Assembly (NCBI GenBank): GCA_011052015.1
Contig: DRJZ01000130.1
Location: 1-36,509, forward strand
DNA from: Acidiferrobacteraceae bacterium
Lineage (GTDB): Bacteria; Pseudomonadota; Gammaproteobacteria; HyVt-429
Length of the DNA stretch: 36,509 bases
Reading direction: 5' to 3'
In this document: positions 134 through 29,520 of the stretch, piece by piece
How positions within the stretch are numbered: the first letter of the stretch is position 1
Layout of the letters: every line of letters starts with the position of its first letter
Notes under the pieces: model-generated
The model's input: the letters and a program-made list of their open reading frames with translations, nothing else
The model's database searches: none
Told to the model about the DNA's origin: nothing
Made by a program: the position numbers and the translations under genes

Positions 134-237
134 TAGCTATGTGTCCATCTATAAACACCTTTAGCCCCCTCTCCCTCCGGGAGAGGGTGGGGGTGAGGGG
201 ATATAAAACAGGTGTTTATGTGGACGGACACTAGCTA
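134..237. repeat. MITE/REP-like element with imperfect terminal inverted repeats and an internal CCCTCTCCC…GGGAGAGGG REP hairpin
   Basis: Left end tagctatgtgtccatctataaacacct versus reverse complement of right end tagctagtgtccgtccacataaacacct; core ccccctctccctccgggagagggtgggggtgagggg. Confidence 0.6.
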
Positions 238-1700: not shown

Positions 1701-1811
1701 ATGATTAGAACAAGCGCGACAGAGATAGTCGAAGAGCTGGAAGCGATTGAGACCGAGTCCAAGGAGGCGGATAAGGCGTTGAAGGGAATTCTGGAGCAGA
1801 TTGCAAAATGA
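1701..1811 (+). pseudogene. C-terminal remnant of a type I methyltransferase (HsdM) overlapping the hsdS start
   Basis: MIRTSATEIVEELEAIETESKEADKALKGILEQIAK* resembles HsdM C-terminal coiled tails; TGA overlaps the hsdS ATG (ATGA). Confidence 0.5.
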
Positions 1812-3124
1812 TGGATGGAAACCCATACGCCTTGCCTGAATCGTGGAGTGATTCCTCGATTGGCGATGTAGTCCTGAAAGCAAAACAACGCGATCCGAGG
1901 AAGATACAGGATGATAAGTTTCTATATGTTGATGTTTCCAGCGTTTCCAACCAGCTATTCAGAATCACCGGCGCAACACAAACACTCGGAAGTGAAGCAC
2001 CAAGCCGGGCACGGAAGGAGATTCAAACGAACGATGTTCTCTTCGCGACTGTAAGGCCAACCCTGAAACGTATCGCCGTCGTTCCTGATTGGCTCAATGG
2101 ACAAATCGCCAGTACTGGGTACTGTGTTCTCCGAAGCGATATCGTGAAAGTTGATCCGCGCTATCTCTATTACTATCTGATTACAGACGGCTTTAACGCA
2201 AGAATGGCTGGTCTTGAGCGCGGGGCCAATTATCCAGCGGTACGTGATTCAGATGTAAAGAATTCCTGGCTACCACTCCCTCCGCTCCCCGAGCAGAAGA
2301 AGATCGCGCATATCCTTTCGACGGTACAACGTGCGATCGAAGCACAGGAGCGGATCATCCAGACCACCACCGAGCTGAAAAAGGCCCTCATGCAAAAACT
2401 CTTCACCGAAGGCCTCCGTAACGAACGACAAAAACAAACCGAAATCGGCCCCGTTCCAGAAAGCTGTGAGGTGGTGGAGTTGGGGATCCTGTTGCGTGAG
2501 CCTTTGCGCAACGGCCATTCTGCGAAGGCAACTACTGACAAGAACGGAATCCGAACGCTAACCCTCACGGCAGTTACACAACGGGACTTCTGCATAGAAA
2601 ACACCAAGGTTACCTGCGCCGATCCAAAGCGTGTAAAAAACATGTGGCTGAAGCCGGGAGACATCTTCGTTGAAAGAGCGAATACTGCTGATTACGTGGG
2701 ATTGGCCGCGCTGTATGAGGGAGAGGAAAATTTCGCGATCTTCTCAGACTTGCTTGTGCGGGTTCGAGTGGACGAATCGAGACTCGCTCCAAAGGTACTG
2801 ATCGAATGGCTCCTTGCAGAGCCTTGCCGCCGATACTACAAGAAGAACGCACGCTCTACCGCAGGCAACTTTCCGAAGATCGACCAAGGAACAATCGAAA
2901 AAACCTTAATTCCCGTGCCTCAACCAGAAGAGCAGGAGGAACTGGAGAGAATTTTTCGAACGCTGGATACCAAGATCGCTCAGCAAACTCAGAAATGGGC
3001 ATCCCATCAAGACCTCTTCCGCACGCTCCTTCACGAACTGATGACTGCGAAAATTCGTGTGGACGACATTGACATTCCAAAAGGTTCTAGCATCATGTTA
3101 GCAGAGCCCTTGTTCCAGGATTGA
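1808..3124 (+). CDS. hsdS: Type I restriction-modification specificity subunit HsdS
   Basis: Two TRD-like halves and conserved linkers: LPLPPLPEQKKIAHILSTVQRAIEAQERIIQTTTELKKALMQKLFTEGL… and IPVPQPEEQEELERIFRTLDTKI. Confidence 0.92.
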   Translation: MMDGNPYALPESWSDSSIGDVVLKAKQRDPRKIQDDKFLYVDVSSVSNQLFRITGATQTLGSEAPSRARKEIQTNDVLFATVRPTLKRIAVVPDWLNGQIASTGYCVLRSDIVKVDPRYLYYYLITDGFNARMAGLERGANYPAVRDSDVKNSWLPLPPLPEQKKIAHILSTVQRAIEAQERIIQTTTELKKALMQKLFTEGLRNERQKQTEIGPVPESCEVVELGILLREPLRNGHSAKATTDKNGIRTLTLTAVTQRDFCIENTKVTCADPKRVKNMWLKPGDIFVERANTADYVGLAALYEGEENFAIFSDLLVRVRVDESRLAPKVLIEWLLAEPCRRYYKKNARSTAGNFPKIDQGTIEKTLIPVPQPEEQEELERIFRTLDTKIAQQTQKWASHQDLFRTLLHELMTAKIRVDDIDIPKGSSIMLAEPLFQD

Positions 3125-3134: not shown

Positions 3135-4085
3135 ATGTCACAATACCTATTACATCTTCTCGACGACACAGAATTCGAGGATCTCGTTACCTTGATTTGT
3201 CGGCGAATTCTTGGTGCTGGTACTACATCGTTTTCTCCAGGCCCAGATGGAGGGAAGGACGCTAAATTTGAGGGAACTGCAAACTGCTTCCCAAGTAATT
3301 CCGCTCCTGCAACGGGAAAGTTCATCATTCAGGCTAAACACACGACAAATCCCGTTGCGTCTTGCTCAGATAACAATTTCGAATCAAACAAGACCTCAGT
3401 CGTCAACGAGGAGATTCCGAAGATCAAACGTCAGTTCGTGAACGGTGATTTGACACATTACCTATTGTTCACGAATCGCCGTAAAACTGGTGGAGCAGAG
3501 GATCGCATTCCCAAACATATCAAAAATGAAACCGGAGTCGAAAACGTTTGGTTGTTCGGTTTGAAAGATATCGGAGATCACCTGCTCAATTACCCTGACA
3601 TCATCAAACAAGCAGGGCTCGATAAGCTGCGATCACCTATTCGATTCACTCCAGACGATATTCGTGACGTAATTGTGGCATTTCACACTCACCGAGAAGA
3701 AATATCAACCGCTTTCGATAGCCAGCACGATTTTAAGGATTACCCTGGAATCAAGAAGAAAAACGAAATTAACGGCCTAACTGACGGCTACTACAGGTAT
3801 ATACAGGAGGACTCAGTTCCACGGTTTTCCGAAATTCAACACTTTCTGAAGAACCCCCGTAACTGGAAATTTGCTGACCAGTATCATGCCGTCGCCGATG
3901 AACTCAAAGGGCAGATCATTACTCATCGCGACAAGTTCGTGACTTTTGATGAGGCTTTGGAGCATGTGTTTCAATTGATGCATGGGCGTAGTCTAGAATT
4001 GCAGTCAGCAGCGCATCGACGGCTGACCAAAATTTTTGTGCATTACATGTATTGGGACTGCGATATTGGAGAAAAAGAAACGTGA
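3135..4085 (+). CDS. ABC-three-component-like effector: N-terminal REase-like (PD-(D/E)xK) domain plus ABC-3C C-terminal domain
   Basis: FEDLVTLICRRILGAGTTSFSPGPDGGKDA…KFIIQAKHT resembles Mrr/REase-fold motifs; followed by a small gene and a DUF2326-like ATPase, the ABC-3C order. Confidence 0.65.
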   Translation: MSQYLLHLLDDTEFEDLVTLICRRILGAGTTSFSPGPDGGKDAKFEGTANCFPSNSAPATGKFIIQAKHTTNPVASCSDNNFESNKTSVVNEEIPKIKRQFVNGDLTHYLLFTNRRKTGGAEDRIPKHIKNETGVENVWLFGLKDIGDHLLNYPDIIKQAGLDKLRSPIRFTPDDIRDVIVAFHTHREEISTAFDSQHDFKDYPGIKKKNEINGLTDGYYRYIQEDSVPRFSEIQHFLKNPRNWKFADQYHAVADELKGQIITHRDKFVTFDEALEHVFQLMHGRSLELQSAAHRRLTKIFVHYMYWDCDIGEKET

Positions 4086-4330
4086 TTCGCCCGGCAAAGC
4101 ATCTTAATCTCAACATGTGTGTCCTGAGGGCTGCAAGTCGTCTTCTCGCAAAGTTGCAAGTCGATCGTATCTGCGGTTATGAGGATCTCCGACAGAATTT
4201 GAGCAACCTAGGAGAAGATGCTGATGTCCTTTTCCTTCCCACAGTTCACTTCCTCTACTTGCTCGGGCTCGTCGAGTATCACACACAGACCGATTCATTC
4301 GAATACATCCAGCCTGGAAGTGGATCGTGA
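4082..4330 (+). CDS. Small ABC-3C middle component-like protein (winged-helix type)
   Basis: GTGA overlap with the upstream stop; MIRPAKHLNLNMCVLRAASRLLAKL…FLPTVHFLYLLGLVEYHTQTDSFEYI resembles ABC-3C MC proteins. Confidence 0.6.
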   Translation: MIRPAKHLNLNMCVLRAASRLLAKLQVDRICGYEDLRQNLSNLGEDADVLFLPTVHFLYLLGLVEYHTQTDSFEYIQPGSGS

Positions 4331-6120
4331 AGCTTAGTCGTCTCTACACCAACGACACTTTGGTTTTCACCCCTATCGACTTCCGAGAGGGATTCAATGT
4401 CGTTTTGGCTCGCATCCGGCACCCAAAGGACGATGAAAAGAGTAGTCACTGTCTCGGAAAGACTCTCCTGGTTGATGTTATTGATTTTTGTCTCTTGAAA
4501 TCCGTTGGGACGAAGAACCATTTCCTAAAATCCCGAGATGATCTTTTCGGCGACCTTGTCTTTTTCCTGGAATTAGAATTATCTGAAGGCGGGTACGTGA
4601 CAGTTCGCCGACCAGTTCACGAGGCCACGAGAATATCTTTCAAACGGCACGAGGAACGTCACCAAGACTATATTAATTCTGCAGACGAAACATGGGATCA
4701 TCTCAATATCTCCCTAGCTGCAGGTGTGAGGATGCTCGATGGCTACCTTGCGCTCTCCATGATCAAACCCTGGAACTATCGGAAAGGCGTCAGCTACTTC
4801 ATGCGTCGTCAGGAAGATTATTCAAACGAATTCCAGCTACGTAAGTTTTCGAGCGGAAGCCACAAGGATTGGAAGCCTTATGTGGCTCGTGTATTGGGTT
4901 TTCATGACGCCCCGATAACTCAGAAATATGAGGCCGATGCTGCGCATGCAAAGATCAAGGAACGCCGCACCGAATTACAAGGTGAAGTCATGGTTAAACT
5001 TTCTGACTACGAGAAGCTTCGCGCTAGCATTACGGTCAAAAGGGACGAGGTTGAACAGAAAGTATCAGCTCTTGATGAATTTGATTTCAAGGCACAGGAA
5101 TTGGGCCTGAGCGAAGAACTCGCTGATGAGATTGAAAAGAAGGTCGCCGACATCAATGAGGCGCTTTACAACGCTCGATTCGATTTAAACCAAACGAAGC
5201 AAGGGCTTGAGGATGAAGTTCACTTTGATCTGAAAGATGTGCAGCGGGTATTCTCTGAGTCAAAAATTACTTTTCCTGATCAGTTGGCCCGGGACTATAC
5301 AGACCTCGTTGATTTCAACAGGAGGATCCTCAGTGAGCGCCGAACATCACTTAAGAATCGGGCCGAAGAGCTTGAGCGTGAGATTAAGTCTTTAGAAAAT
5401 ACCAACATAGAGCTTGCGGAGAAGAGAAAGAGTATCCTGCAAGTCTTGGGTGGTACAGACAGCCTCAAGAAGTATAAAAGTCTGCAGAAGGAGCTCGACC
5501 ATGACCGGGCGAGCGTGGCTCTAATGGAAGAGAAAGCCGAAAAACTGGATGCTATTCGAGAACTCAATGATGAACTTCGCAAAACAAAAGCCAAATGCGA
5601 TGAACTGACTGTTACGCTCGAGGAGCTTGTTACCAATGGTTCAGACCGCTATCGGCAAATACAGAAGACTTTCAGTAGAATCATCAAAGAGGTTCTGCAC
5701 AGAACCGCTGTCCTTTACGTTCAACAGAACGATAGTGGCAATCTGGATTTTCATGCAGAATTCACTGACGCCGACAGTGACGCTCATACACAGGAAAGGC
5801 GAGGAACCTCTTTCCGGAAAATCCTTTGTATAGCGTTCGACCTCGCAGTGCTGACAAGCTATGCAAAGAAACCATTTTTCCATTTTGTTTATCACGACGG
5901 AGCACTGGAGCAGTTGGAGAGCAAGCGGAAACTCGCCCTTCTGTCCGTGGTTCGGCAGGCCTGCGCTGACTACGGCATCCAGTATATCCTTAGTGCCTTA
6001 GATGAGGAGCTTCCAGAGGATGAGGATACGGCTCACCTCTGTCCGCGACCGGAAGAGGTGATTGTCGAACTGCATGACGGAGGCGATAACGGACGCCTAT
6101 TCAAACTAGAGCGTTTCTAA
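4327..6120 (+). CDS. DUF2326-family Rad50/SMC-like ATPase (ABC-3C ATPase component)
   Basis: N-terminal P-loop variant SHCLGKTLLVDVIDFCLL, long central coiled coil, C-terminal FRKILCIAFDLAVL…FHFVYHDGALEQLE (ABC signature/Walker B region); GTGA overlap with previous CDS. Confidence 0.82.
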   Translation: MKLSRLYTNDTLVFTPIDFREGFNVVLARIRHPKDDEKSSHCLGKTLLVDVIDFCLLKSVGTKNHFLKSRDDLFGDLVFFLELELSEGGYVTVRRPVHEATRISFKRHEERHQDYINSADETWDHLNISLAAGVRMLDGYLALSMIKPWNYRKGVSYFMRRQEDYSNEFQLRKFSSGSHKDWKPYVARVLGFHDAPITQKYEADAAHAKIKERRTELQGEVMVKLSDYEKLRASITVKRDEVEQKVSALDEFDFKAQELGLSEELADEIEKKVADINEALYNARFDLNQTKQGLEDEVHFDLKDVQRVFSESKITFPDQLARDYTDLVDFNRRILSERRTSLKNRAEELEREIKSLENTNIELAEKRKSILQVLGGTDSLKKYKSLQKELDHDRASVALMEEKAEKLDAIRELNDELRKTKAKCDELTVTLEELVTNGSDRYRQIQKTFSRIIKEVLHRTAVLYVQQNDSGNLDFHAEFTDADSDAHTQERRGTSFRKILCIAFDLAVLTSYAKKPFFHFVYHDGALEQLESKRKLALLSVVRQACADYGIQYILSALDEELPEDEDTAHLCPRPEEVIVELHDGGDNGRLFKLERF

Positions 6121-6151
6121 TTCATATGCCAAAATTCAGAGAACACAAAAT

Positions 6152-6172
6152 CGTTCAACCCGCATAGGACGC
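6152..6172. repeat. Direct repeat copy 1 CGTTCAACCCGCATAGGACGC flanking the RNase HI gene
   Basis: 18/21 identical to 7032-7052. Confidence 0.6.
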
Positions 6173-6205
6173 GCCTACCATACTCTGTGCACGGTGGCCA
6201 ACGAA

Positions 6206-7045
6206 TCACACCAGCTTCGAGCACTCAATCTCGTCCAGCATCCGAGCAATCCTCGGGTTCGCGGTATCTTTGTTTAGAACTACCACGTAGCAATGCCCGT
6301 CTCTTAGCGGCTCAGTAGAGAAAATAATGTCAACGTTGCCTAGATATTTGCTCTTCTTGGAAATGACTTCAAACTTGTATTTCCAGAGCTTATGAGTTTC
6401 TAGATATTCCGTCGTGAATACTCGGATTGATAATCTCTGACCGCGCATCTCGACACTACCGATTTCGACAGACTTTGAGGTTTTCTTCCTTCTCACCGAC
6501 ACGGTAGATAACGGTTTGTGCAGCGGGTTCTTGGCAGATTTCCTTGCGAGCTTATCAGCCGCTTTGTTGTACTTGTCCTTTGAGTGACCTTTGACCCATT
6601 TAATGCTGACGTTGCGCCGACTTTGATACGCGCGTTTGAGAAGCCTTACCAACCGTTTCCACTGGGCCACATGGAGGATCGGTCGCCCGGTTTGTCGGTT
6701 TGTCCACTTTGTAGTGGGCCATACAAACTTCGCGGTCTGATAGTTATCAACTATGTATCGTGAATCCGTGTGGACAACGATTTTCTCAAATTGCTTGAGG
6801 GCTTCTTGATCGAGAGCTTCCTCCAGTCCTTTGATGCATGCCTCAAGTTCCATTTCGTTGTTCGTCGCCTGTTTGTAGCCTGGATAGTCGAACTCGTTGA
6901 TAACCTCCTCATCCCCTGCGTCATTGACAATGACGAATACAATACCAATCCCGCCGACCCTTGGTCCGGAGAAGGAAGATCCATCGGTATAGATGTTCAA
7001 AGCATCGTCATCTAGCATTTCAGGATTATAGCGTTCAGCCCGCAT
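6206..7045 (-). CDS. RNase HI-family protein with about 100-aa C-terminal extension (true start may be the internal MLDDDALN at about 7018)
   Basis: All RNase HI catalytic motifs: NIYTDGSS, NNEMELEAC, VVHTDSRYIVDN, KWVKGHSKDKYNKAADKLA. Confidence 0.85.
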   Translation of the reverse strand: MRAERYNPEMLDDDALNIYTDGSSFSGPRVGGIGIVFVIVNDAGDEEVINEFDYPGYKQATNNEMELEACIKGLEEALDQEALKQFEKIVVHTDSRYIVDNYQTAKFVWPTTKWTNRQTGRPILHVAQWKRLVRLLKRAYQSRRNVSIKWVKGHSKDKYNKAADKLARKSAKNPLHKPLSTVSVRRKKTSKSVEIGSVEMRGQRLSIRVFTTEYLETHKLWKYKFEVISKKSKYLGNVDIIFSTEPLRDGHCYVVVLNKDTANPRIARMLDEIECSKLV

Positions 7046-7052
7046 AAGATGC
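7032..7052. repeat. Direct repeat copy 2 CGTTCAGCCCGCATAAGATGC flanking the RNase HI gene
   Basis: 18/21 identical to 6152-6172. Confidence 0.6.
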
Positions 7053-7080
7053 GGTTCGCAAGCTCACCTCATCCTGCGTG

Positions 7081-7314
7081 CTATGGAATGTGGCTTGGAG
7101 TATCGGACGCAGTAGAGGAGGTAACCATGGTTGGCCCGGCGTACACAGGTAGATTTGGGGTGCGTTGCCCACCGGGTAACCGAGATTCACATTGCTTGGC
7201 GTAGGGCTCTGAGCAATACGATATATTGTCAAGAACTTGAAAAATCATTCCGCCAATTGGTATTGTGATAATGCCTGTTACCACAGAAGATTTATAAATC
7301 TTTTCCCAGTCCAT
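7081..7314 (-). CDS. Small hypothetical protein with one possible TM segment, immediately downstream of HigA
   Basis: ATG directly follows the HigA stop (TAAATG); SSVVTGIITIPIGGMIFQVL is hydrophobic. C-terminal half overlaps repeat-like sequence. Confidence 0.35.
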   Translation of the reverse strand: MDWEKIYKSSVVTGIITIPIGGMIFQVLDNISYCSEPYAKQCESRLPGGQRTPNLPVYAGPTMVTSSTASDTPSHIP

Positions 7315-8406
7315 TTAAGAATTATCCTTCCAAACAAACCTTGTTTTCAATTTATTGTAATGGCTATAAGGAATTAACCCATCATGTTGTAATCTCCCAA
7401 CAACAATGCCCGGTGCGATTCCAAGTTGTTCTGCAAATGTAGCAATGGTTGCTGTGCTCCACCGGCCAAGCTGCTGGAAGACCCGATATTCTTTTAGAGG
7501 TATCAGAGTATTTCTGGCAAAGCGGTCTGCTTCCTGCTCTTTGTCGTTGTCTTCAATTTCCTCCTCATCTATGAATACATCCTTCTTCCCGTGCAGCAAT
7601 ATATGACCTGCCTCGTGGAAGAATGTGAACCAGAGATGATCATCGGATTTATGCCGCAGGCTGAACATAATTAAGGCCTTGTCTTTTGTAAGCCAACGTG
7701 CGGCACCGCTTAAGTGGGTTTTAGGTAGTTCCGGTACAAGTGCCACAGCGACGCCTGCATCGGCACACAAGCTTTGCATCTCCGGGACAAAAACATCCGG
7801 GGGTTGGCGTGTCAGTCCACGAATACTGGACAAGGCCTCAATAAAACGCTCCCGGTTATAGGCTGCGCAATCAATATCTTCGGCGTGTAATTCACCCATG
7901 CGTAGCCAGGCCGCGACGGATTCGGGGGCACTCTTGTAGGACGGCGATTTCCGGTATGCGATACATACACGCGCACAGCGCTCCTCCCAGGCCGCTGCGC
8001 TACCGACGCCGAAAAAATCCAGCAGTTTTTCAACCCGGTCGGTTGGTGATTCCGGCTTGGGAATAAACCCCAGCTTAACCATCTTGTTGATGGGAAAGCG
8101 TTTGGCCCAGTCTTTTTGAGCCAGAAGCGCTTTTTGCTGTTCGGACTTTGCGACCGCCAGCCGGTAATTGGCCTCCAGGTTGTTCCACACGCTGGCGTTG
8201 ACACCCAGCACGCGCTCAAACTGGATGGCGGTCTCGGCGGTAATGGGCGCCTGGCCGCTGATGATCTGGCTGACCATTTTTTCGGAGCGCCCGCAACGCT
8301 CGGCGAACTCGGCCTTTTTCATGCCACGGGTAGCCAACGTTTCCTCCAGGATCTCACCCGGCGGGATCGCATAATCCGGCTCGAATTGATTAGCTACAGT
8401 GCTCAT
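7315..8406 (-). CDS. higA: HigA-type XRE antitoxin fused to ImmA/IrrE (DUF955) metallopeptidase domain
   Basis: PPGEILEETLATRGMKKAEFAERCGRSEKMVSQIISGQAPITAETA (HigA HTH) plus FTFFHEAGHILLHGKK (HExxH). Confidence 0.9.
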   Translation of the reverse strand: MSTVANQFEPDYAIPPGEILEETLATRGMKKAEFAERCGRSEKMVSQIISGQAPITAETAIQFERVLGVNASVWNNLEANYRLAVAKSEQQKALLAQKDWAKRFPINKMVKLGFIPKPESPTDRVEKLLDFFGVGSAAAWEERCARVCIAYRKSPSYKSAPESVAAWLRMGELHAEDIDCAAYNRERFIEALSSIRGLTRQPPDVFVPEMQSLCADAGVAVALVPELPKTHLSGAARWLTKDKALIMFSLRHKSDDHLWFTFFHEAGHILLHGKKDVFIDEEEIEDNDKEQEADRFARNTLIPLKEYRVFQQLGRWSTATIATFAEQLGIAPGIVVGRLQHDGLIPYSHYNKLKTRFVWKDNS

Positions 8407-8741
8407 TAGTGATAATCCTCTATGCCCAGTATTTCGATTGCTGTCACTCGTGTTAAATCAACGCCACCATCCCTGGTTTTCGGTATCGGGTTGTGGCCCG
8501 GTTTGAACACAATCCTGAAAGGGTGCTCGACATCTACTGCATATTCGCCCTGTCTTTTGCCCTCCAACTGGTGGCGGCGTTCCGGTCGCCGGTGGGGCAC
8601 ATCGGCCAGGGTCGGAGCCGCCTGTAAGACCGCCATCCTTCTCTGGATAATCCGCGCATTTCTCACACCGTACTTTTTTGTAAGTTCGGTACTGGAATTA
8701 AACACCTTTTGTGTCTTTTTGTTCTTGAAGGAGATATCCAC
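8406..8741 (-). CDS. higB: HigB/RelE-like toxin
   Basis: Directly upstream of and overlapping higA; YGVRNARIIQRRMAVLQAAPTLADVP…LEGKRQGEYAVDVEHPFRIVFKP…VTAIEILGIEDYH. Confidence 0.85.
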   Translation of the reverse strand: MDISFKNKKTQKVFNSSTELTKKYGVRNARIIQRRMAVLQAAPTLADVPHRRPERRHQLEGKRQGEYAVDVEHPFRIVFKPGHNPIPKTRDGGVDLTRVTAIEILGIEDYH

Positions 8742-8761
8742 TTATTATCCCTAATATCCAT

Positions 8762-8774
8762 TACCTATAAGGTA
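8762..8774. promoter_or_regulatory. Putative HigBA operator TACCTATAAGGTA
   Basis: Inverted repeat TACC-TATAA-GGTA upstream of higB (ends 8741), with a further AAGGTATA direct copy at about 8785. Confidence 0.4.
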
Positions 8775-8858
8775 TAGGGAAATTAAGGTATAAGTCAAGC
8801 CCGCAAGAGGGAGAATGAGGAATTAACAATTAGGAATTTGGAATGAGGTCCGTCCACG

Positions 8859-9080
8859 TAGGATGCCCCTATCACGCTCTGTGCATAGTGGCCAACGAAT
8901 CACGCTAGTTTCGGGCACTCGATCTCGTCTACGACTACAAGGATGTAGTCGGTAGAGTGACGCACGACTGCATGGACGCAGGAGGTACGACCCCATGGAT
9001 GGGGGAGGTAGAGCGACGCTTGGAGCCAAAGCCGAGCATCCGAGTAATCCTCGGGTTCGCGGTATCTTTGTTTAGAAATA
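8859..9080 (-). pseudogene. 3' end remnant of a second RNase HI-type gene, interrupted by an insertion (8931-9034)
   Basis: Minus strand reads FLNKDTANPRITRML [insert] DEIECPKLA*, matching the intact gene's VLNKDTANPRIARMLDEIECSKLV*; downstream flank also matches 6160-6200. Confidence 0.75.
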
Positions 9081-9147
9081 CTTTGAACTGCTGGATTTCC
9101 GTTAAAGGCACGACGGGGCCTATTTTTTGCCGTTACCGTTTTTCATA

Positions 9148-9438
9148 TCACAGCCGTTCTCTCCAATACCCCGGCCTGCGCGCCAGAGGGGTCACGGCCA
9201 GGATATGGATGTCCTCAATTTCTGACTGGTAAATCACCCCATAGGGGAACCGCCGGGTCAGGGTACGGCGGGTATTGGGTGACAGCCGGCTGCCGGACTT
9301 CGGAAAGGCGATGATGCGGTCGATGGCCGCGAAGACTTCTTCGGCAAATTGCTTACCGAGGTTGGGTTGTTGTTCCTCATACCATTCGATAGCTGCAAGG
9401 AATTCGGTGCGGGCTTCGGGATGAAATCGCCAGGTCAT
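9148..9438 (-). CDS. ParE/RelE superfamily toxin
   Basis: MTWRFHPEARTEFLAAIEWYEEQQPNLGKQFAEEVFAAIDRI…PYGVIYQSEIEDIHILAVTPLARRPGYWRERL. Confidence 0.88.
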   Translation of the reverse strand: MTWRFHPEARTEFLAAIEWYEEQQPNLGKQFAEEVFAAIDRIIAFPKSGSRLSPNTRRTLTRRFPYGVIYQSEIEDIHILAVTPLARRPGYWRERL

Positions 9439-9671
9439 GCACCTTTAAACCGTTTTCGGACTTCTTCCCTGACCTGTTCTCCAGACACGGGCTCCACCTC
9501 ACCGGCACGGATTTCACGCAGACGACGCTCCGCCTCCTCGGCCCAAAGCCTGTCCAAATCTTCACCAGTAGGCAGGTTGAGGCTGCGTAACAGTTGATCC
9601 ACCAATGCCGCACGCCGGTCGTTAGGCAGCAAAAGCGCCTCATCCAGAACCTTTTCTTCCAAAGTTGCCAT
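9435..9671 (-). CDS. Addiction module antitoxin (Unstab_antitox family)
   Basis: ALLLPNDRRAALVDQLLRSLNLPTGEDLDRLWAEEAERRLREIRAGEVEPVSGEQVREEVR; overlaps the ParE start. Confidence 0.88.
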   Translation of the reverse strand: MATLEEKVLDEALLLPNDRRAALVDQLLRSLNLPTGEDLDRLWAEEAERRLREIRAGEVEPVSGEQVREEVRKRFKGA

Positions 9672-9877
9672 GGCGTTACTCCCAAGAGCTTGATGCTTAA
9701 CCCTAATTTTACTCTGTTTCCCGCTTTATTTCAGTCGATCATCGCATCCTGCGTGCTCACATACCTCTATCACACGCTCTTTGCAGGATGACCAACAAAT
9801 CACGGTGACCTGATCGATACGGTTCGCAGGCTTTTATGCCCCTTTAGGATGCACCACATCCTACGTGCTATTTAGAC

Positions 9878-12905: not shown

Positions 12906-13028
12906 ATGATATCCCGAGACGTTCCCGGCGAGCATAAAACCGTACAGGCCCGTATCCTGAAATATGCCAGGGAAATCGGCTGGACGATGGTGCCCCGAGA
13001 GGAAGCAAACTCGGTAAAATGTCATTAA
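12906..13028 (+). pseudogene. Truncated hsdR 5' end (duplicate of 14922-15005)
   Basis: MISRDVPGEHKTVQARILKYAREIGWTMVPREEA… matches intact HsdR MKPGEHKTVQARILKYAGEIGWAVVPRKEA. Confidence 0.85.
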
Positions 13029-13603: not shown

Positions 13604-14919
13604 GCAGCATTGCCGAGGTCCGACTTTGGGGGCGCACGATTGGTGCGGTGTCGCTGGACGAGGGCAAGGATGTGGTTGCCTTCGAGTACGACCCGGCGTT
13701 TGTCGGAAGTGACATCGAAATTGCGCCGCTCACCATGCCCCTTTCTAACCGCGTCTATACCTTCCCCGAATTATCCAGAAAAACTTTTTACGGACTGCCC
13801 GGACTACTGGCTGACTCGTTGCCGGACAAGTTCGGTCGTGTACTGATTGATGCCTGGTTGGCCACACAGGGAAGGCAGCCAGATTCGTTCAATGCCGTCG
13901 AGCGGCTTTGCTATACGGGTGAGCGCGGTATGGGTGCTTTGGAATTTGCACCGGCGATTGGACCGAAAGTCCGGCAGGCCAGCCGGATACAAATCGACAA
14001 GCTGGTTGAACTCGCATCGGAAATACTCACCCATCGTAATGACCTTCGGGTTTCCTTTGTTGATGAAAGCGCCGATGAAATTAAGGCGCAGGCGTTGACC
14101 GACATCCTGCGGGTCGGCACCTCGGCCGGTGGCGCCAGGGCCAAGGCGGTGATAGCCTGGAATCCGTCAACCAACGAAGTTCGTTCCGGCCAGATTCCGG
14201 CGGGTGAGGGTTTTGAATACTGGCTGCTAAAATTTGACGGCGTCGGCGGCAACCGGGACAAAGAACTCGAGGACCCGCAAGGTTACGGCGTGATTGAATA
14301 CGCCTATTACAAAATGGCGCGCGACTGCGGTATCGATATCAGCGAATGCCGTTTATTCGAGGAAAATGGCAGGCGTCATTTTATGACTCGGCGCTTTGAC
14401 CGTCTTGCGGGTGGTGAAAAGCTTCACATGCTATCGCTTTGCGCATTGGCGCATTACGATTTTAATATGGCGGGTGCCTACGCCTATGAACAGGCGTTGC
14501 TGGTGATCCGGCAGATGGGATTGCCCATGGCTGCAATCGAGGAGCAGTTCCGCCGCATGGTGTTTAACATCGTCGCCCGCAATCAGGACGATCATGTCAA
14601 GAATATTGCCTTCTTGATGGATAAATCCGGCAACTGGTCACTGTCGCCCGCCTTTGATGTGATCTACAGTTACAACCCTACAGGTGAATGGACGGCCAGC
14701 CATCAGATGACCCTCAACGGCAAGCGTGATGACTTCACCATGGATGATTTCAATGCCTGCGCGAAGGCCGCCTCCCTGAAACGTGGGCGCGCCAAGGCCA
14801 TTGTCAATGAGGTGTGCGAAGCGGTCGCCCGCTGGCGGGAGTATGCCGATGAAGCGGATGTGCCTGTGGCAACGAGTGATCAGATCCAGCGCACGCTTCG
14901 GTTGAAGGAATTTAGATGA
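13600..14919 (+). CDS. hipA: HipA-family serine/threonine kinase toxin
   Basis: FYGLPGLLADSLPDKFGRVLIDAWLA…GTSAGGARAKAVIAWN…WLLKFDGV…HFMTRRFDR…NIVARNQDDHVKNIAFLMD…SPAFDVIYSYNP. Confidence 0.95.
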   Translation: MSSIAEVRLWGRTIGAVSLDEGKDVVAFEYDPAFVGSDIEIAPLTMPLSNRVYTFPELSRKTFYGLPGLLADSLPDKFGRVLIDAWLATQGRQPDSFNAVERLCYTGERGMGALEFAPAIGPKVRQASRIQIDKLVELASEILTHRNDLRVSFVDESADEIKAQALTDILRVGTSAGGARAKAVIAWNPSTNEVRSGQIPAGEGFEYWLLKFDGVGGNRDKELEDPQGYGVIEYAYYKMARDCGIDISECRLFEENGRRHFMTRRFDRLAGGEKLHMLSLCALAHYDFNMAGAYAYEQALLVIRQMGLPMAAIEEQFRRMVFNIVARNQDDHVKNIAFLMDKSGNWSLSPAFDVIYSYNPTGEWTASHQMTLNGKRDDFTMDDFNACAKAASLKRGRAKAIVNEVCEAVARWREYADEADVPVATSDQIQRTLRLKEFR

Positions 14920-17834
14920 AACCCGGAGAACATAAAACCGTACAGGCCCGTATCCTGAAATATGCCGGGGAAATCGGCTGGGCGGTGGTGCCTCGTAAAG
15001 AAGCGGAAGTGCGTCGCGGTTTTGATCCAGATACGGCGCCCAGGGATCGGGCAAAAGGTGTGTCTCTGTTTTTCGATGACCTGCTTGATACCAAGGTGCG
15101 GGAATTTAATTCATGTTACAGCGAAGCCGAGGGGGCGCTGCTTGGCACGTTTCGTCATTTCCATCCCGATATCTATGGTAACCGGGAATTCGTCGATCAC
15201 CTGCGCAACCGGGGCAAGTTTTTTGATCATGAGGAGAAACGCGAACGCGATTTGATCCTGATCGACTACGACACGCCTGCGAATAACGTTTTTGAAGTCA
15301 CCGAGGAATTCGCCTACCACAACGGTCACTATGGTATACGGGAAGACGTGGTGTTTCTGGTCAACGGTATACCGGTGCTGGTGATTGAGTGCAAGAACGC
15401 CAACAAGGACGAGGCGATTGCCTTGGGGGTGGATCAGATCCGCCGCTACCACCGCGAAACTCCGGAACTGTTCGTCCCCGAGCAGGTATTTACCGCCACC
15501 GATGCCATTGGTTTTTCCTATGGGGTGACCTGGAACCTGGTGCGCCGGAATATCTTCAATTGGAAAGACGAGGAGGTCGGCAAGCTGGAGGCTAAGATAA
15601 AAAGTTTTTGCGCTATTTCGCAGGTGCTTGGCTTTTTGAAGGACTACATCGTCTTTGCCGAGAAGGACGAGGAGCTGAACAAATATATCCTGCGCCAGCA
15701 TCAAACGGGCGCGGTGGAGCGGGTCGTCAGCCGGGCTCTCGAACCGGAGCGCAAGCGTGGCTTGGTGTGGCATACCCAGGGCAGTGGCAAGACCTTTACC
15801 ATGATCAAGGCGGCGGAGTTGTTGTTCAAGGCTCCCGAAGCGGATAAGCCCACAGTGCTGCTGATGATCGACCGCAACGAGTTGGAAGATCAGATGTTGA
15901 AAAATCTGGCCGCGCTGGGGCTGGGCAACCTGGAACACGCCACCAGTATTTCACGCCTTAACAAGCTGTTGCGCGACGATTACCGGGGCATTATCGTGAC
16001 CATGATCCACAAATTCCGCGATATGCCGGCGGATATCAACAGGCGCGCGAATATCTATATCTTGATCGATGAGGCCCACCGCACTACGGGGGGCGACCTG
16101 GGCAACTTCCTGATGGCTGGGTTGCCCAATGCCAGTTACATCGGCTTTACCGGCACCCCGGTAGATAAAACAGCCTATGGGCGCGGAACCTTCAAGACCT
16201 TTGGCTGTGAGGATGACAAAGGTTACCTGCATAAGTATTCCATCGCCGACAGTATCGAGGACGGCACGACCCTGCCGCTTTACTACAACCTTGCTCCTAA
16301 CGAGATGCTGGTGCCGCACGAAACCCTGGATAAGGAATTTCTGTCGCTGGCCGAGGCGGAGGGTGTGGCCGATATTGAGGAGTTGAACAAGATTCTCGAA
16401 AGGGCGGTGAACCTGAAGAATTTTCTCAAGGGCAAGGACCGTATTCGCAAGGTGGCGCAATATGTGGCTGAGCACTACCGTGAGAATGTCGAACCGCTTG
16501 GCTACAAGGCATTTCTGGTCGGCGTGGATCGTGAGGCCTGCGCCCATTACAAGCATGCGCTGGATGAGTGCCTGCCGCCGGAATATTCCGAAGTGGTTTA
16601 CACGGGTAACAATAACGATTCAAAATTGTTAAAAGAGTTTCATCTTGATCCGAAGAAGGAACGAGAAATCCGTAAGAGCTTTAACAAGCTCGAAAAGCAG
16701 CCGAAGATTCTTATTGTCACCGAAAAGCTGCTGACCGGTTTTGATGCGCCTGTGCTGTATGCGATGTATCTGGACAAACCTATGCGTGATCACACCTTGT
16801 TACAGGCCATTGCGCGGGTGAACCGCCCATACGAAAATGAACAGGAGGGCATGGTCAAAGCCCACGGCTTCGTCCTCGATTTCGTCGGCATCTTCGATAA
16901 ATTGGAAAAAGCGCTGGCCTTCGACAGCGATGAAGTCAATGCTGTAGTGAAGGACTTGAAGCTGCTCAAGGTACTATTCCAGAACAAGATGGAGCAGAAG
17001 GCCCCGGAATACCTGGGGCTGATCGAGCGGCATTTTGATGACAAGGATATTGACGCCCTGATCGAACATTTCCGTGACCCGGAAAGACGTAAGGAGTTCT
17101 TCAAGGAATATAAAGAAATCGAAATGCTTTACGAGATCATATCGCCCGACGCTTTTCTGCGCCCGTTTATCGATAATTACGGTACGCTCTCCGCGATCTA
17201 CGATATTGTGCGCAAGGCTTACGCAAAACAAGTGCAAGTCGACCGGGCTTTTCAAAAGAAGACTAACGAACTGGTGCAGAAGTACGTTGGCACGGATTAC
17301 ATTAAAACCGTTACCGAAGTGCTGGAGATCAATGAGGATACAGCAAGATATATCGCTTCCAGGAAGGGTGGCGATGGCAACAAGGTAATCAATCTCGTTA
17401 AAGGCATTGAGAAGATCGCGAAAGATGAAAGTGAAGATCCCTATCTGATTGCCATGGCCGAGCGTGCACGGGCGGTGCAAGAGAATTTTGAGAGTCGCCA
17501 GACCAGCACCGCCGAAGCGCTGGCAGCTCTGCTAAAGGAAGTCGATGAGAATGAGGAGCGAAAGAAGGAGCAGGCGGAGAAAGGCTTCGATGGGCTGACC
17601 TTCTTTGTCTATCGGACGCTGCTTGATGCAAAAATAGAAAATGCTGAAGACGTGAGCTGCAAGATCAAAGCGGCCTTTGTTGAATTTCCCAACTGGAAGA
17701 AGAGCGAGAGCGCATTGCGCGAACTGCGCAAGAAAGTGACCTTTGCGATTTACGCGGTAAGCGATGACTTGGACAGGGTCACGACCCTTGTGGATGAACT
17801 GTTCAATCTACTGGAGAAGGCAGATCGAATCTAA
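14916..17834 (+). CDS. hsdR: Type I restriction endonuclease subunit HsdR
   Basis: PD-(D/E)xK region (VLVIECKNANKDEA), helicase motifs HTQGSGKTFTMIKAAE, DEAHRTTGG, FTGTP, LLQAIARVNRPY. Confidence 0.95.
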   Translation: MKPGEHKTVQARILKYAGEIGWAVVPRKEAEVRRGFDPDTAPRDRAKGVSLFFDDLLDTKVREFNSCYSEAEGALLGTFRHFHPDIYGNREFVDHLRNRGKFFDHEEKRERDLILIDYDTPANNVFEVTEEFAYHNGHYGIREDVVFLVNGIPVLVIECKNANKDEAIALGVDQIRRYHRETPELFVPEQVFTATDAIGFSYGVTWNLVRRNIFNWKDEEVGKLEAKIKSFCAISQVLGFLKDYIVFAEKDEELNKYILRQHQTGAVERVVSRALEPERKRGLVWHTQGSGKTFTMIKAAELLFKAPEADKPTVLLMIDRNELEDQMLKNLAALGLGNLEHATSISRLNKLLRDDYRGIIVTMIHKFRDMPADINRRANIYILIDEAHRTTGGDLGNFLMAGLPNASYIGFTGTPVDKTAYGRGTFKTFGCEDDKGYLHKYSIADSIEDGTTLPLYYNLAPNEMLVPHETLDKEFLSLAEAEGVADIEELNKILERAVNLKNFLKGKDRIRKVAQYVAEHYRENVEPLGYKAFLVGVDREACAHYKHALDECLPPEYSEVVYTGNNNDSKLLKEFHLDPKKEREIRKSFNKLEKQPKILIVTEKLLTGFDAPVLYAMYLDKPMRDHTLLQAIARVNRPYENEQEGMVKAHGFVLDFVGIFDKLEKALAFDSDEVNAVVKDLKLLKVLFQNKMEQKAPEYLGLIERHFDDKDIDALIEHFRDPERRKEFFKEYKEIEMLYEIISPDAFLRPFIDNYGTLSAIYDIVRKAYAKQVQVDRAFQKKTNELVQKYVGTDYIKTVTEVLEINEDTARYIASRKGGDGNKVINLVKGIEKIAKDESEDPYLIAMAERARAVQENFESRQTSTAEALAALLKEVDENEERKKEQAEKGFDGLTFFVYRTLLDAKIENAEDVSCKIKAAFVEFPNWKKSESALRELRKKVTFAIYAVSDDLDRVTTLVDELFNLLEKADRI

Positions 17835-20047: not shown

Positions 20048-23000
20048 ATGAGCCATTTTTTAGATCGATTACGTTTTTTTGGTCGCGTTGAAGAGTCATT
20101 TTCGGATGGCCACGGTGCGCTCACCTACGATAATCGACAGTGGGAGGACGGTTATCGCAGACGTTGGCAATTTGACAAGGTGGTGCGTTCCACCCACGGC
20201 GTCAATTGCACCGGCGGTTGTTCCTGGAATATTCATGTCAAGAATGGTCTTGTTGCGTTTGAAATGCAGGCCACCGATTACCCGGAAACAAGGCCGGACC
20301 TGCCCAACCATGAACCACGAGGTTGCCAGCGCGGAGCGAGTTACTCCTGGTATTTATATAGTCCGCACCGGGTTAAACACCCGTTAGTCAGGGGAAGATT
20401 GCTGGAATTGTATCGGCAAGAGAAAGCCACAGGCAAAGACCCTGTCGAAGCCTGGGAAGCCATACAAAACGATACGGAAAAACGTCAACGCTACATAGCG
20501 GTCAGGGGGCTGGGAGGATTTGTTCGGAGTAACTGGGATGAAGTCACCGAGTTAGTTGCTGCCGCAAATATTTATACTATAAAAAAATACGGCCCGGATC
20601 GCGTTTACGGTTTTTCTCCAATCCCGGCGATGTCCATGATCAGTTATGCTGCAGGTTCCCGTTACCTGTCTTTGATCGGCGGGGTGCCGCTGAGTTTTTA
20701 CGATTGGTATTGCGACTTGCCACCGTCGTCACCGCAAACCTGGGGGGAACAAACCGACGTGCCGGAATCGGCAGATTGGTTTAACTCTACCTATTTGATT
20801 GTGTGTGGCGCGAATTTGCCTATGACCAGAACACCGGATGCACATTTTTTCTCCGAAGTGCGTTACAAGGGTGCAAAAGTTGTTTCGATGGCGCCGGACT
20901 ATGCCGAGTACGTTAAATTCGCCGACTTGTGGATGCCGGTGCGTCAAGGTACAGATTCCGCCGCTTTTCTGGCGATGACTCATGTCGCGCTAAAGGAATT
21001 TATCTTAGAAAAGCCAGTGCCCTATTTTCTGGACTACATGCGTACAAATACGGATATGCCGATGTTGGTAAAACTGCGCAAACAAGGCGATGCCTATGTG
21101 ACAGACCAATTATTGCGTGCTTCAGATCTTGAAAACAACGCCGACGAATCCAATAACCCTGAATGGAAAACCATCCTCATCGACGAAAACACCAATGATT
21201 TGGTGGTGCCTAACGGCTCGATCGGCTTTCGCTGGGGTGAAAAAGGCAAGTGGAACATACAAGAAAAGAATGCAAAAAATCAGCAGGACATAAAAGCACG
21301 TCTAAGCCTGATCGAGAGTTCCGACATCATTACTGATGTCGCCTTCCCGCATTTTGACTCGAACTCCAAACGAACTTTGGTTCGTAAAATACCGGTTCGC
21401 AAGTTAACCATTGATGGCGAAGAAACCCTGGTGGCGACTGTTTTTGATTTGCAATTGGCGCAATACGGTTTGGATCGTGGTTTGGGCGGTGACAATATTG
21501 CTACTAGCTATGACGATGACGACGCTGCCTATACGCCGGCATGGGCGGAAAAAGTTACCGGCGTTAAATGCGCCGACCTGATTCGTACCGGGCGGGAATT
21601 TGCCGAAAACGCCGCCAAGACTCAGGGCAAATCAATGGTAATTCTCGGCGCGGGTATCAATCATTGGTATCACAACGACATGGCCTATCGCGCAATCATG
21701 AATTTATTACATATTTGTGGTTGTGTCGGTCAATCCGGCGGCGGTTGGGCCCATTATGTCGGCCAGGAAAAACTCAGGCCACAAGCTGGTTGGGCACCCA
21801 TTGCGTTTGCACTTGATTGGCATCGTCCCCCACGGCAAATGAATGGTACCAGTTTCTTCTATTTTCATACCGATCAATGGCGCTATGAAAAACTCAATGC
21901 GGATGAATTGCTCGCCGAAACTGCCAAAGGCAGCTACAGAGGCTATACCCTGGCAGACTACAATGTCGCCTCACAGCGTATGGGTTGGTTGCCATCCGCG
22001 CCGCACTTCAATAAGAACCCATTAAAGCTATGCGATGAGGCAAAAGCCGCTGGCGCCAAAGACGATCAAGGCATTATTGATTACGCAGTAGGTCAATTAA
22101 AACAGGGTGAGATGGCATTCGCCTATGAGGATATTGATGCGCCGGAAAACTACCCGCGCAATCTGTTTGTTTGGCGTGCCAATCTATTGGGTTCCAGCGC
22201 CAAAGGACATGAATATTTTCTAAAGCATTTGCTTGGAGCGCAAAACGGTGTGATGGAGGCGGGTACCGAAGGTGCCGCATCACGTGAAATAAAGTGGCAC
22301 GAACAGGCGCCGACCGGCAAACTGGATCTGTTGGTGGATATTAATTTCCGCCTTAATTCCACCGGGGCTTATTCCGACATCGTGTTGCCTACTGCCACCT
22401 GGTATGAAAAGAACGATCTCAATACCACCGATATGCATCCGTTCATTCATCCGCTGACGGCTGCAGTTAATCCCGGTTGGGAAAGCCGCAGTGACTGGCA
22501 GATATTCAAATCAATTGCCAAAGCATTTGAGACGCTGGCGGAAAAACACCTGGGCACGCGCAAGGATCTGGTGTCGTTCCCTTTGATGCACGATAGTCCG
22601 ACGGAGTTGGGACAGGCGTTGTCGGTTAAGGACTGGAAGCGCGGCGAATGCGAACCGGTTCCTGGGAAGACCATGCCGTCTTTTAAAGTGGTTGAGCGCG
22701 ATTATGGCGCCACCTATAAAAAATTTACGGCGCTTGGTCCCCTAATGGAGTCGCTTGGTAATAACGTTAAAGGGCTCGACTGGAACACAGAGGAAGAATA
22801 TAAACGCCTGAAAACGGTGATTCGCACCGTACGCGAGCCCGGTTTGACGCAAGGTATGCCATCGCTGGAAGAAGATAAAAGCGTATGCGAGGCAATCTTG
22901 GTTATGGCCCCTGAGACCAATGGTGAAGTGGCGCAAAAATCATGGCAAGCCCTTAATAAAAAAACCGGGCTTGATCACACACATTTAAGCGCTTCCCGGC

Positions 23001-23791
23001 GCGACGAAAAAATCACCTTTACCGATATCAAGAATCAACCGCGTAAAATTATCACAGCCCCTACGTGGAGCGGTATCGAATCGGAAGAGGTCAGTTACAC
23101 CGCAGGCTATACCAACATACATGAACGTATTCCGTTTCGCACCTTAACCGGACGTGCGCAATTCTATCAGGATCACGAGTGGATGCTGGATTTCGGTGAA
23201 GGGTTTTGTGTCTATCGTCCGCCAGTGGATCTGCAAGCTACTGCCGCAGTGGAGTCTCGATTAAATGGCAAGCAGCATTTAACGCTTAACTGGATTACGC
23301 CGCATAGTAAATGGGGGATTCATAGTACCTACAATGACAATCTGCGCATGCTGAACCTATTTCGTGGTGGTCCGGGGGTTTGGATTTCCGAGAAGGACGC
23401 TGAAAAGATCGGGCTTGAGGATAATGATTGGGTTGAGGCGCTAAACGGCAATGGCGCCACTGTCGCGCGCGTAATTGTTAGCCAGCGTGTACCCGAGGGC
23501 ATGGCAATGATGTACCACGCACAGGAAAAAACCATCAATGTACCGGGCTCGCCGACTACCGGTAAACGTGGCGGTATTTTAAATAGTGTGACTCGCACCA
23601 CAGTCAAACCGACACATATGATTGGTGGTTATGCTCAACTTTCTTATGGATTTAATTACTATGGCACCGTGGGTTCTCAGCGAGATGAATTTGTCATCGT
23701 GCATAAAATTGAAGATCAGGACGTTGATTGGCTGGAGCGTGAGCTCACCCCTGAGCGGGAAGCGAATCCAAATCCTCCGGGTATGGTTTAA
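20048..23791 (+). CDS. narG: Respiratory nitrate reductase alpha subunit
   Basis: MSHFLDRLRFFGRVEESFSDGHGALTYDNRQWEDGYRRRWQFDKVVRSTHGVNCTGGCSWNIHVKNG…. Confidence 0.98.
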   Translation: MSHFLDRLRFFGRVEESFSDGHGALTYDNRQWEDGYRRRWQFDKVVRSTHGVNCTGGCSWNIHVKNGLVAFEMQATDYPETRPDLPNHEPRGCQRGASYSWYLYSPHRVKHPLVRGRLLELYRQEKATGKDPVEAWEAIQNDTEKRQRYIAVRGLGGFVRSNWDEVTELVAAANIYTIKKYGPDRVYGFSPIPAMSMISYAAGSRYLSLIGGVPLSFYDWYCDLPPSSPQTWGEQTDVPESADWFNSTYLIVCGANLPMTRTPDAHFFSEVRYKGAKVVSMAPDYAEYVKFADLWMPVRQGTDSAAFLAMTHVALKEFILEKPVPYFLDYMRTNTDMPMLVKLRKQGDAYVTDQLLRASDLENNADESNNPEWKTILIDENTNDLVVPNGSIGFRWGEKGKWNIQEKNAKNQQDIKARLSLIESSDIITDVAFPHFDSNSKRTLVRKIPVRKLTIDGEETLVATVFDLQLAQYGLDRGLGGDNIATSYDDDDAAYTPAWAEKVTGVKCADLIRTGREFAENAAKTQGKSMVILGAGINHWYHNDMAYRAIMNLLHICGCVGQSGGGWAHYVGQEKLRPQAGWAPIAFALDWHRPPRQMNGTSFFYFHTDQWRYEKLNADELLAETAKGSYRGYTLADYNVASQRMGWLPSAPHFNKNPLKLCDEAKAAGAKDDQGIIDYAVGQLKQGEMAFAYEDIDAPENYPRNLFVWRANLLGSSAKGHEYFLKHLLGAQNGVMEAGTEGAASREIKWHEQAPTGKLDLLVDINFRLNSTGAYSDIVLPTATWYEKNDLNTTDMHPFIHPLTAAVNPGWESRSDWQIFKSIAKAFETLAEKHLGTRKDLVSFPLMHDSPTELGQALSVKDWKRGECEPVPGKTMPSFKVVERDYGATYKKFTALGPLMESLGNNVKGLDWNTEEEYKRLKTVIRTVREPGLTQGMPSLEEDKSVCEAILVMAPETNGEVAQKSWQALNKKTGLDHTHLSASRRDEKITFTDIKNQPRKIITAPTWSGIESEEVSYTAGYTNIHERIPFRTLTGRAQFYQDHEWMLDFGEGFCVYRPPVDLQATAAVESRLNGKQHLTLNWITPHSKWGIHSTYNDNLRMLNLFRGGPGVWISEKDAEKIGLEDNDWVEALNGNGATVARVIVSQRVPEGMAMMYHAQEKTINVPGSPTTGKRGGILNSVTRTTVKPTHMIGGYAQLSYGFNYYGTVGSQRDEFVIVHKIEDQDVDWLERELTPEREANPNPPGMV

Positions 23792-23820
23792 AAAGGTCAG
23801 CCTTAAAACGAAAGTGTTAT

Positions 23821-23960
23821 GGGCGCTTCTATTAATCCCCTCTCCCTTCGGGAGAGGGCTAGGGTGAGGGGGCAAATAAAGCTAAGGTACTGATTTTATT
23901 ATCCCCTCATCCCAACCTTCTCCCGGAAGGAGAAGGAGTTATCAATTAATAGAAGTGCCC
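23821..23960. repeat. Composite REP element between narG and narH with 15-bp terminal inverted repeats
   Basis: GGGCGCTTCTATTAA … TTAATAGAAGTGCCC ends; internal REP 23837-23871 and inverted REP 23903-23938. Confidence 0.7.
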
Positions 23961-23991
23961 TTATGTTAATAATTTTTAAGTGGAGTATTGA

Positions 23992-25566
23992 ATGAAAATC
24001 CGCGCACAGTTTTCCCTGGTATTTAACCTGGACAAATGTATAGGCTGTCACACTTGTTCGGTCACGTGTAAAAATGTCTGGACCAATCGCAAAGGTGTAG
24101 AGTATGCGTGGTTTAACAACGTCGAGAGCAAACCCGGCATTGGATACCCGAAAAACTGGGAAGACCAGGATGTTTGGCACGGTGGTTGGGAATTGTTTAA
24201 TAATAAATTACGGCTTAAATCAGGCAGTCGTCTCAAACGCTTGATGAATATTTTCGCCAATCCAGATCTGCCGGTAATCGACGATTACTACGAACCCTAC
24301 ACCTACAATTACGGTCATTTGCAAACCTCACCGCTATCGGAAGCCGCGCCCACAGCGCGGCCGATGTCGCAACTCGATGGCGGCCAAATGGAAAAGGTCT
24401 CCTGGGGGCCGAATTGGGAAGACGATCTTGCCGGCGAATTTAAGAAGCGCAGTCAGGATAAAAACTTCGCTAATATTGAAAAGCAAATATATTCTGAATT
24501 TGAACACACATTTCAGATGTATCTGCCAAGGATGTGTAACCACTGTCTGAATCCATCGTGCGTCGCATCTTGTCCGGCCGGATCAATGTATAAGCGCGAA
24601 GAAGATGGCATTGTGCTGGTCGATCAGAACAAATGCCGCGGTTGGCGTATGTGCGTCAGCAATTGTCCATACAAAAAGGTATTTTATAACTGGGAATCCG
24701 GCAAGGCGGAAAAATGTATAGCCTGTTATCCACGTGTTGAGGCAGGGCTACCCACAGTGTGTTCCGAATCATGCGTTGGCCGTATTCGTTACAACGGAAT
24801 AATGCTTTATGACGCGGATAAAATAAAGGAGGCTGCATCAACGGAAAATGAACAAGGTCTGTATGAGGCACAACTTGATATTTTTGTTGATCCCAATGAC
24901 CCAGAGGTGATCGCAAATGCACGTGAAAACGGCGTGTCTTGCTCCTGGATAGAGGCCGCGCAGAAATCACCGATTTATAAAATGGCTGTTGAATGGCGCG
25001 TGGCTTTCCCGTTGCATCCGGAATTTCGCACCTTGCCCATGGTTTGGTATGTGCCGCCGTTGGCACCGGTACAGTCGCAAATTGATCAAGGCAACCTGCC
25101 GACTGAAGAAGATGGCATGATCCCAAAAGCCGAGGCATTACGCATGCCTGTTCAATACTTGGCCAATTTATTTACCGCCGGTGATGAAAAGCCGATATTG
25201 AAAAGTATTAACCGCTTGATCGCCATGCGATCTTATCAACGCACAGTACATGTAGATAAACAGCCGAACCAGGCCATTCTGGATAAGGTGGGTCTCAGCG
25301 TTGAGCAGGTTGAAGATATGTACCGGTATATGGCCATCGCCAACTATGAAGATCGGTTTGTTGTTCCAACCAGTCAGGAAGAATTACGACAGGATGATTT
25401 TCACGCGTTTCAGGGCACCAATGGTATTGATTTCGGAAACACGAGTCCCAACAGTGGAGGTAAAATATCGTTGTTCCCAACACGCCGCCAGGGAAGCATG
25501 GAATCCCTGGTTTATGTGGCGCCGCCTGAAAAGTTCAAAAAGGAGAAAGAAACCGTCGATAGTTAG
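23992..25566 (+). CDS. narH: Respiratory nitrate reductase beta subunit
   Basis: LDKCIGCHTCSVTCKNVWTNRKGVEYAWFNNVESKPGIGYP, CNHCLNPSCVASCPAGSMYKREEDGIVLVDQNKCRGWRMCVSNCPYKK. Confidence 0.98.
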   Translation: MKIRAQFSLVFNLDKCIGCHTCSVTCKNVWTNRKGVEYAWFNNVESKPGIGYPKNWEDQDVWHGGWELFNNKLRLKSGSRLKRLMNIFANPDLPVIDDYYEPYTYNYGHLQTSPLSEAAPTARPMSQLDGGQMEKVSWGPNWEDDLAGEFKKRSQDKNFANIEKQIYSEFEHTFQMYLPRMCNHCLNPSCVASCPAGSMYKREEDGIVLVDQNKCRGWRMCVSNCPYKKVFYNWESGKAEKCIACYPRVEAGLPTVCSESCVGRIRYNGIMLYDADKIKEAASTENEQGLYEAQLDIFVDPNDPEVIANARENGVSCSWIEAAQKSPIYKMAVEWRVAFPLHPEFRTLPMVWYVPPLAPVQSQIDQGNLPTEEDGMIPKAEALRMPVQYLANLFTAGDEKPILKSINRLIAMRSYQRTVHVDKQPNQAILDKVGLSVEQVEDMYRYMAIANYEDRFVVPTSQEELRQDDFHAFQGTNGIDFGNTSPNSGGKISLFPTRRQGSMESLVYVAPPEKFKKEKETVDS

Positions 25567-25589
25567 CCCATCTATTTACGATAATAGTT

Positions 25590-26117: not shown

Positions 26118-26134
26118 ACAATAGTGAGACTAAT

Positions 26135-26869: not shown

Positions 26870-26923
26870 AAGCAAAACATGTGAGCACTTCTTATGCAAT
26901 CAGATCATCACATGGCGCAAAGA

Positions 26924-28515: not shown

Positions 28516-28519
28516 GTTG

Positions 28520-29515: not shown

Positions 29516-29520
29516 GAAAA

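Follow-up and report, generated by a model that had tools for sequence, protein, structure and literature searches.

The window analysed here, a stretch of 36,509 nucleotides from an Acidiferrobacteraceae bacterium, contains a three-gene operon immediately downstream of an intact hsdS gene and on the same strand (Table 1). The ATG of the first gene (position 3135) follows the hsdS stop codon (3124) after a gap of 10 bases, and the genes of the trio are joined to each other by GTGA overlaps. The TGA of gene 1 (4083-4085) is located inside a GTGA whose GTG at 4082 is the start of gene 2, and the TGA of gene 2 (4328-4330) is located inside a second GTGA whose GTG at 4327 is the start of gene 3. 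This arrangement had been described in an earlier note on the locus, whose coordinates are exact to the base; the motifs it quoted, GPDGGKDA and IIQAKH in the nuclease protein and SHCLGKT in the ATPase, are all present in the translations. Promoter and terminator patterns occur in the window at the level of chance in pattern scans. No RNA family or tRNA was found in the window, and therefore it offers no tRNA-borne integration site.

Table 1. Genes, remnants and nucleotide-binding motifs at the trio locus (window coordinates).
Feature	Coordinates	Strand	Evidence
hsdM 3' end remnant (probable), 36 codons + stop, ATGA overlap with the hsdS start	1701..1811	+	alignment, HsdM C-terminus
hsdS, type I specificity subunit, 438 codons, intact	1808..3124	+	Methylase_S 73.5 bits (cutoff 22); PADLOC Specificity_I E 1e-75
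Component A, LmuA-like effector, 316 aa	3135..4085	+	Pfam CTD12
Component B, middle component MC8 (LmuC-like position), 82 aa, GTG start	4082..4330	+	Pfam MC8; GTGA overlap
Component C, DUF2326 Rad50/SMC-like ATPase (LmuB-like), 597 aa, GTG start	4327..6120	+	Pfam DUF2326; PADLOC; Foldseek; GTGA overlap
Walker A region KSSHCLGKT, ATPase residues 38-46	4438..4464	+	alignment, n=64
Walker B / D-loop region HDGALEQLE, ATPase residues 523-531	5893..5919	+	alignment, n=64

ABC-three-component (ABC-3C) systems are defined by the order of a CTD-type protein, a middle component and an ATPase. All three trio proteins match Pfam families far above chance: CTD12 on component A (114.2 bits, cutoff 25, E = 9e-33), MC8 on component B (67.8 bits, cutoff 25, E = 8.8e-19) and DUF2326 on component C (75.5 bits, cutoff 28.7, E = 4.2e-21). 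The order CTD12-MC8-DUF2326 is the canonical ABC-3C order, and plasmid records label relatives of the trio as ABC-three component system protein, middle component 8 and DUF2326 protein. In PADLOC, the ATPase matches the candidate model PDC-M68B over nearly its whole length (E 7e-52) and LmuB models far more weakly (E 9.8e-10), and the N-terminus of the nuclease protein matches PDC-S73 (E 4.2e-8); both PDC models are themselves candidates only. The locus thus has a CTD protein with a catalytic N-terminus, a small middle gene, a coiled-coil Rad50/SMC-like ATPase and a conserved operon, and the trio is a complete, further member of an already known class of predicted anti-virus systems that occurs widely. 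The earlier note had proposed this identity from family and order; it holds through the curated profiles for three of three proteins, which link the first two to ABC-3C families, through the conservation of the trio in other genomes and through the ATPase fold. A PDB sequence search returned no credible relative for any component and no detectable solved relative of MC8, matches being obtained by the fold search alone.

Component A comprises an N-terminal PD-(D/E)xK / Mrr-like nuclease domain (residues ~1-165), on which the Pfam Mrr_cat profile scores a sub-threshold 13.7 bits, and a C-terminal CTD12 docking domain (167-312). E15, G36, D38, G40, D42, Q66 and K68 are invariant in the 69 aligned nuclease proteins (69/69), and E15, D38 and Q66-x-K68 form, as read from this alignment, the pattern of a PD-(D/E)xK enzyme. 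The AlphaFold model is confident (pLDDT 92.6). Foldseek gave no significant match to it in the PDB; the best, though weak, was Bacillus subtilis YydB (E 7.7e-3), with EcoT38I, Can2 and Avs4 chains among the weaker ones. No PADLOC LmuA model matched component A, and no Lamassu chain was found among the fold matches listed. The effector module appears to be replaceable, because one plasmid member (L009, Alteromonas, 4963-9755) keeps a CTD12 protein that lacks the nuclease domain. The CTD12 gene of this member is preceded by an 89-aa open reading frame with two apparent membrane segments (judged by eye), and its trio adjoins Tn7-like tnsD/tnsE.

The P-loop of component C had been called unusual in the earlier note. 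The motif HxLGK[TS] is family-wide, with H41, L43, G44 and K45 invariant in 64 of 64 ATPases, which rules out a P-loop peculiar to the window gene; what is rare is only the Cys at position 42, where Asn is usual (Cys in 3/64). Q162 is likewise invariant (64/64), and E528 is present in 60/64. In SMC and Rad50 proteins, a catalytic glutamate directly follows the Walker B aspartate. In the aligned family, the Walker B aspartate (D524) is kept in 64/64 and is followed by Gly (G525 in the window) in 62/64 and by Asp in the other two. Given a Walker B motif that lacks the catalytic glutamate, the ATPase is probably able to bind ATP but poor at hydrolysing it, as far as the aligned residues can indicate. 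A Glu-to-Gln change with the same expected effect on hydrolysis has been described for LmuB (PMC10586767), and the family-wide loss of this glutamate may be a parallel case by our own comparison. Since almost all ATPases of the subtype lack it, a one-shot, ATP-bound sensor is directly testable in them.

The AlphaFold model of the ATPase (pLDDT 86.6; like that of component A, made without the plasmid-record rows) exhibits long helices between two head halves. Its best Foldseek match is YydD (9a6c, E 2.2e-22); the LmuB of a type II Lamassu with DNA (9uxh, E 2.4e-16), Salmonella LmuB (9hqu and 9hqx, E ~1e-12), LmuB 9nyg and the heads of Rad50 and SMC proteins are also among the matches. The rigid-body TM-scores of 0.35-0.6 are modest, which probably reflects the different courses of the coiled coils.

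Relatives of the trio were located in 51 plasmid records, at 62 loci of species genomes and at 17 loci of viral contigs, and 75 loci of the fetched set, besides the window, carry the three genes in order. These loci are spread over many phyla, plasmids and viral contigs, and gene overlaps are possible at 71/75 and 65/75 of them for the two junctions, counts that are upper limits since the first possible start codon was used. Prophage structural genes, integrases and conjugative plasmids form the mobile settings of the relatives. A search for ATPase relatives among 50,697 annotated phage records gave no match. In the tree, the window ATPase and two Verrucomicrobiota sequences form one group with full support. 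The ATPase is 66% identical to that of L010 and 59% to that of L057 (both Verrucomicrobiota); for the nuclease protein, identity is 61-67% to three Verrucomicrobiota proteins and mostly 32-44% to the others. CTD12 was found in 3/274 genomes of the host class and was absent from the sampled genomes of the same genus and the same family. UbiT, UbiU and UbiV serve oxygen-independent ubiquinone synthesis, and in the region 20048-30408 of the window narGHJI-like genes adjoin an SCP2 gene and two U32-peptidase genes that resemble them. We read these Ubi-like and Nar genes as those of a proteobacterial host, and the trio was therefore probably acquired horizontally, with its nearest relatives, at 59-67% identity, in Verrucomicrobiota. 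This distribution also bears on a housekeeping DNA-repair function, in which the trio would be an SbcCD-like nuclease with a Rad50-like ATPase and not a defence system. Although the Rad50 and SMC heads among the fold matches would suit such a function, it is highly improbable in view of the sporadic occurrence, the mobile settings, the absence of an Mre11-like nuclease from the trio and the Walker B motif without a catalytic glutamate.

We consider it very probable that the trio is a defence operon of the type II Lamassu-like (ABC-3C) kind, in the CTD12/MC8/DUF2326 subtype and with a PD-(D/E)xK nuclease as effector, because of the Pfam trio order, the 75 loci, the invariant motif, the ATPase fold, the mobile contexts and the YydD/YydB matches. 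Other ABC-3C systems with CTD12, MC8 and DUF2326 (Pfam PF20279, PF20295 and PF10088) share the domains, order, overlaps and nuclease N-terminus, and the window operon differs from them in nothing essential; identity is 59-67% to the nearest and mostly 30-44% to the others, and hsdS lies upstream. With type II Lamassu (LmuACB) and DdmABC it has in common an effector, a small middle protein, a short Rad50-like ATPase that is homologous to LmuB, the fold of this ATPase and an altered Walker B motif. In contrast, its nuclease is Mrr-like where theirs is Cap4, CTD12 and MC8 stand against a DUF6521 domain on DdmB, and the Walker B glutamate position holds Gly compared with the Gln reported in LmuB. 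B. subtilis YydD-YydB (9a6c, an integrative crosslinking model) provides the best fold match for the ATPase and, weakly, for the nuclease-CTD protein, at 12-14% identity.

In the relatives that have been studied, release of the LmuA effector and formation of a homotetramer have been reported (PMC12409362). Reviews of DdmABC and Lamassu describe an ATPase that senses DNA ends, hairpins and stalled replication, and a freed nuclease that cuts DNA indiscriminately, leading to abortive infection and plasmid loss (PMC12409362, PMC10586767, PMC12904381). By analogy, two copies of the window ATPase would bind ATP and form a complex with the other two trio proteins, in which CTD12 would dock the nuclease and keep it silent. 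Once the ATPase heads and coiled coils meet phage or plasmid DNA in the form of ends, hairpins or replication intermediates, the complex would change shape, and the freed nuclease would oligomerise and cut DNA without strict discrimination, so that the infected cell is killed or the invader destroyed. In this scheme, assembly of the complex, its trigger, the release of the nuclease and the abortive outcome are drawn from these relatives; what is observed directly is gene content and order, family membership, the conservation of the catalytic residues and the fold class of the ATPase. The earlier description of ABC-3C systems as poorly characterised does not apply to the ABC-3C/type II Lamassu class, for which solved structures and tested members exist (PMC12409362, PMC12904381). 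It seemingly does apply to the CTD12/MC8/DUF2326 subtype, for which a literature search found no experimental paper or defence test and which is apparently experimentally untested to date. With the window, this large class of SMC-like immunity gains a further member and an example of adjacency to a type I restriction-modification (R-M) system, together with a probable case of horizontal transfer.

The earlier note had suggested that the linkage to hsdS reflects coregulation or shared mobility. As a general feature this is unsupported: iterative HsdS, HsdM and HsdR profiles, run over all loci, placed hsdS directly upstream of the trio in no relative, including the nearest, L010 and L057. Together with Pfam neighbour tallies, which cover the top 25 families and are less firm than these profiles, they rule out a recurring association with hsdS. 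In the tallied families, the gene most often found directly upstream encodes an HTH_37 regulator (10/61), often 26-35 bases from the trio and in some loci preceded by a RelE/Gp49-like gene. A gene for a small HTH_37-type regulator lies just upstream in L005, L017, L018, L025, L034, L037 and L050, as if the operon were under toxin-antitoxin control. Type I genes occur elsewhere in the flanks (hsdM and hsdS in L026 and L040, hsdM in L046, hsdR in L036), and in L047 and L072 the trio borders on a methylase of another kind. One independent embedding was observed in a Bacteroidales locus (L063, 6612-16064), where hsdR (two open reading frames), CTD12, MC8, DUF2326, hsdS, an additional open reading frame and hsdM follow each other on one strand. 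Adjacency to type I R-M genes hence arose at least twice among about 76 loci, a lower limit since flank lengths differ between loci, yet it is not typical.

The type I system of the window itself seems to be broken. Upstream of hsdS, only the probable 3' end of hsdM was found; in its alignment to the HsdM C-terminus of L093, 0/500 shuffles scored as well, and alignments to other HsdMs are weaker. HsdM_N and N6_Mtase gave no match in the genome, which is 94% complete, so that a missing contig could hide an hsdM. The gene hsdR lies at 14916-17834, ~12 kb downstream, and nowhere in the window do hsdM, hsdS and hsdR stand together as an operon. With ~36 codons of hsdM and no detectable HsdM in the genome, the R-M partner is probably a relic. 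The trio and hsdS might nevertheless cooperate as a co-transcribed, R-M-embedded guard that, like anticodon nucleases, steps in once type I restriction has failed or been inhibited. The 10-base spacing on one strand, the Bacteroidales embedding and the type I-embedded defence genes known in Vibrio cholerae (PMC12409362) agree with this arrangement, which is unlikely given the relatives without hsdS directly upstream, L010 and L057 included, the hsdM remnant and the genome without a detectable HsdM or N6 methylase. TgvAB of V. cholerae resembles the window in that defence genes lie beside a type I R-M system, whereas the proteins are unrelated and the window lacks hsdM. Had the orphan HsdS, deprived of its methylase, been recruited into the ABC-3C complex as a subunit for DNA recognition or regulation, a sequence-specific Lamassu-like system would result, a scenario that we regard as extremely doubtful. 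The adjacency is probably incidental and mostly due to chance; hsdS most likely supplies the trio with a transcript or an insertion site and is probably no functional part of it.

Damage to the neighbouring genes (an AbiEii gene cut at about codon 57, the hsdM remnant and a duplicated 83-base hsdR start) would suit a trio that has decayed or fallen silent as cargo of a disintegrating defence island and has no present function. Such decay is quite improbable, as all three trio reading frames have their full length, both GTGA overlaps persist, no invariant catalytic residue has been lost and the end branch of the window ATPase is short (0.18 compared with a median of 0.47), and the Lamassu-like defence operon remains the preferred reading.

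Several further rearrangements were observed in the window. At 574-1576, an intact AbiEi antitoxin gene is followed by an AbiEii toxin gene that is cut after ~57 codons, and the hsdM remnant comes soon after; a deletion seems to have taken most of abiEii and hsdM. The initial 83 bases of hsdR occur twice, at 12924-13006 and 14922-15004, with 89% identity, a short truncated hsdR copy preceding a hipBA pair and the full hsdR following it, which suggests that the start of hsdR was partly duplicated when hipBA entered. Right behind the trio, direct repeats at 6165-6283 and 8859-9081 (83% over 71 bases and 96% over 47 bases) enclose an RNase HI-like gene and a HigBA-like pair, and the block between them is possibly an insertion unit. 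A short repeat near the start of the window (166-200) recurs behind the narG-like gene (23818-23963), there in the form of an imperfect inverted repeat.
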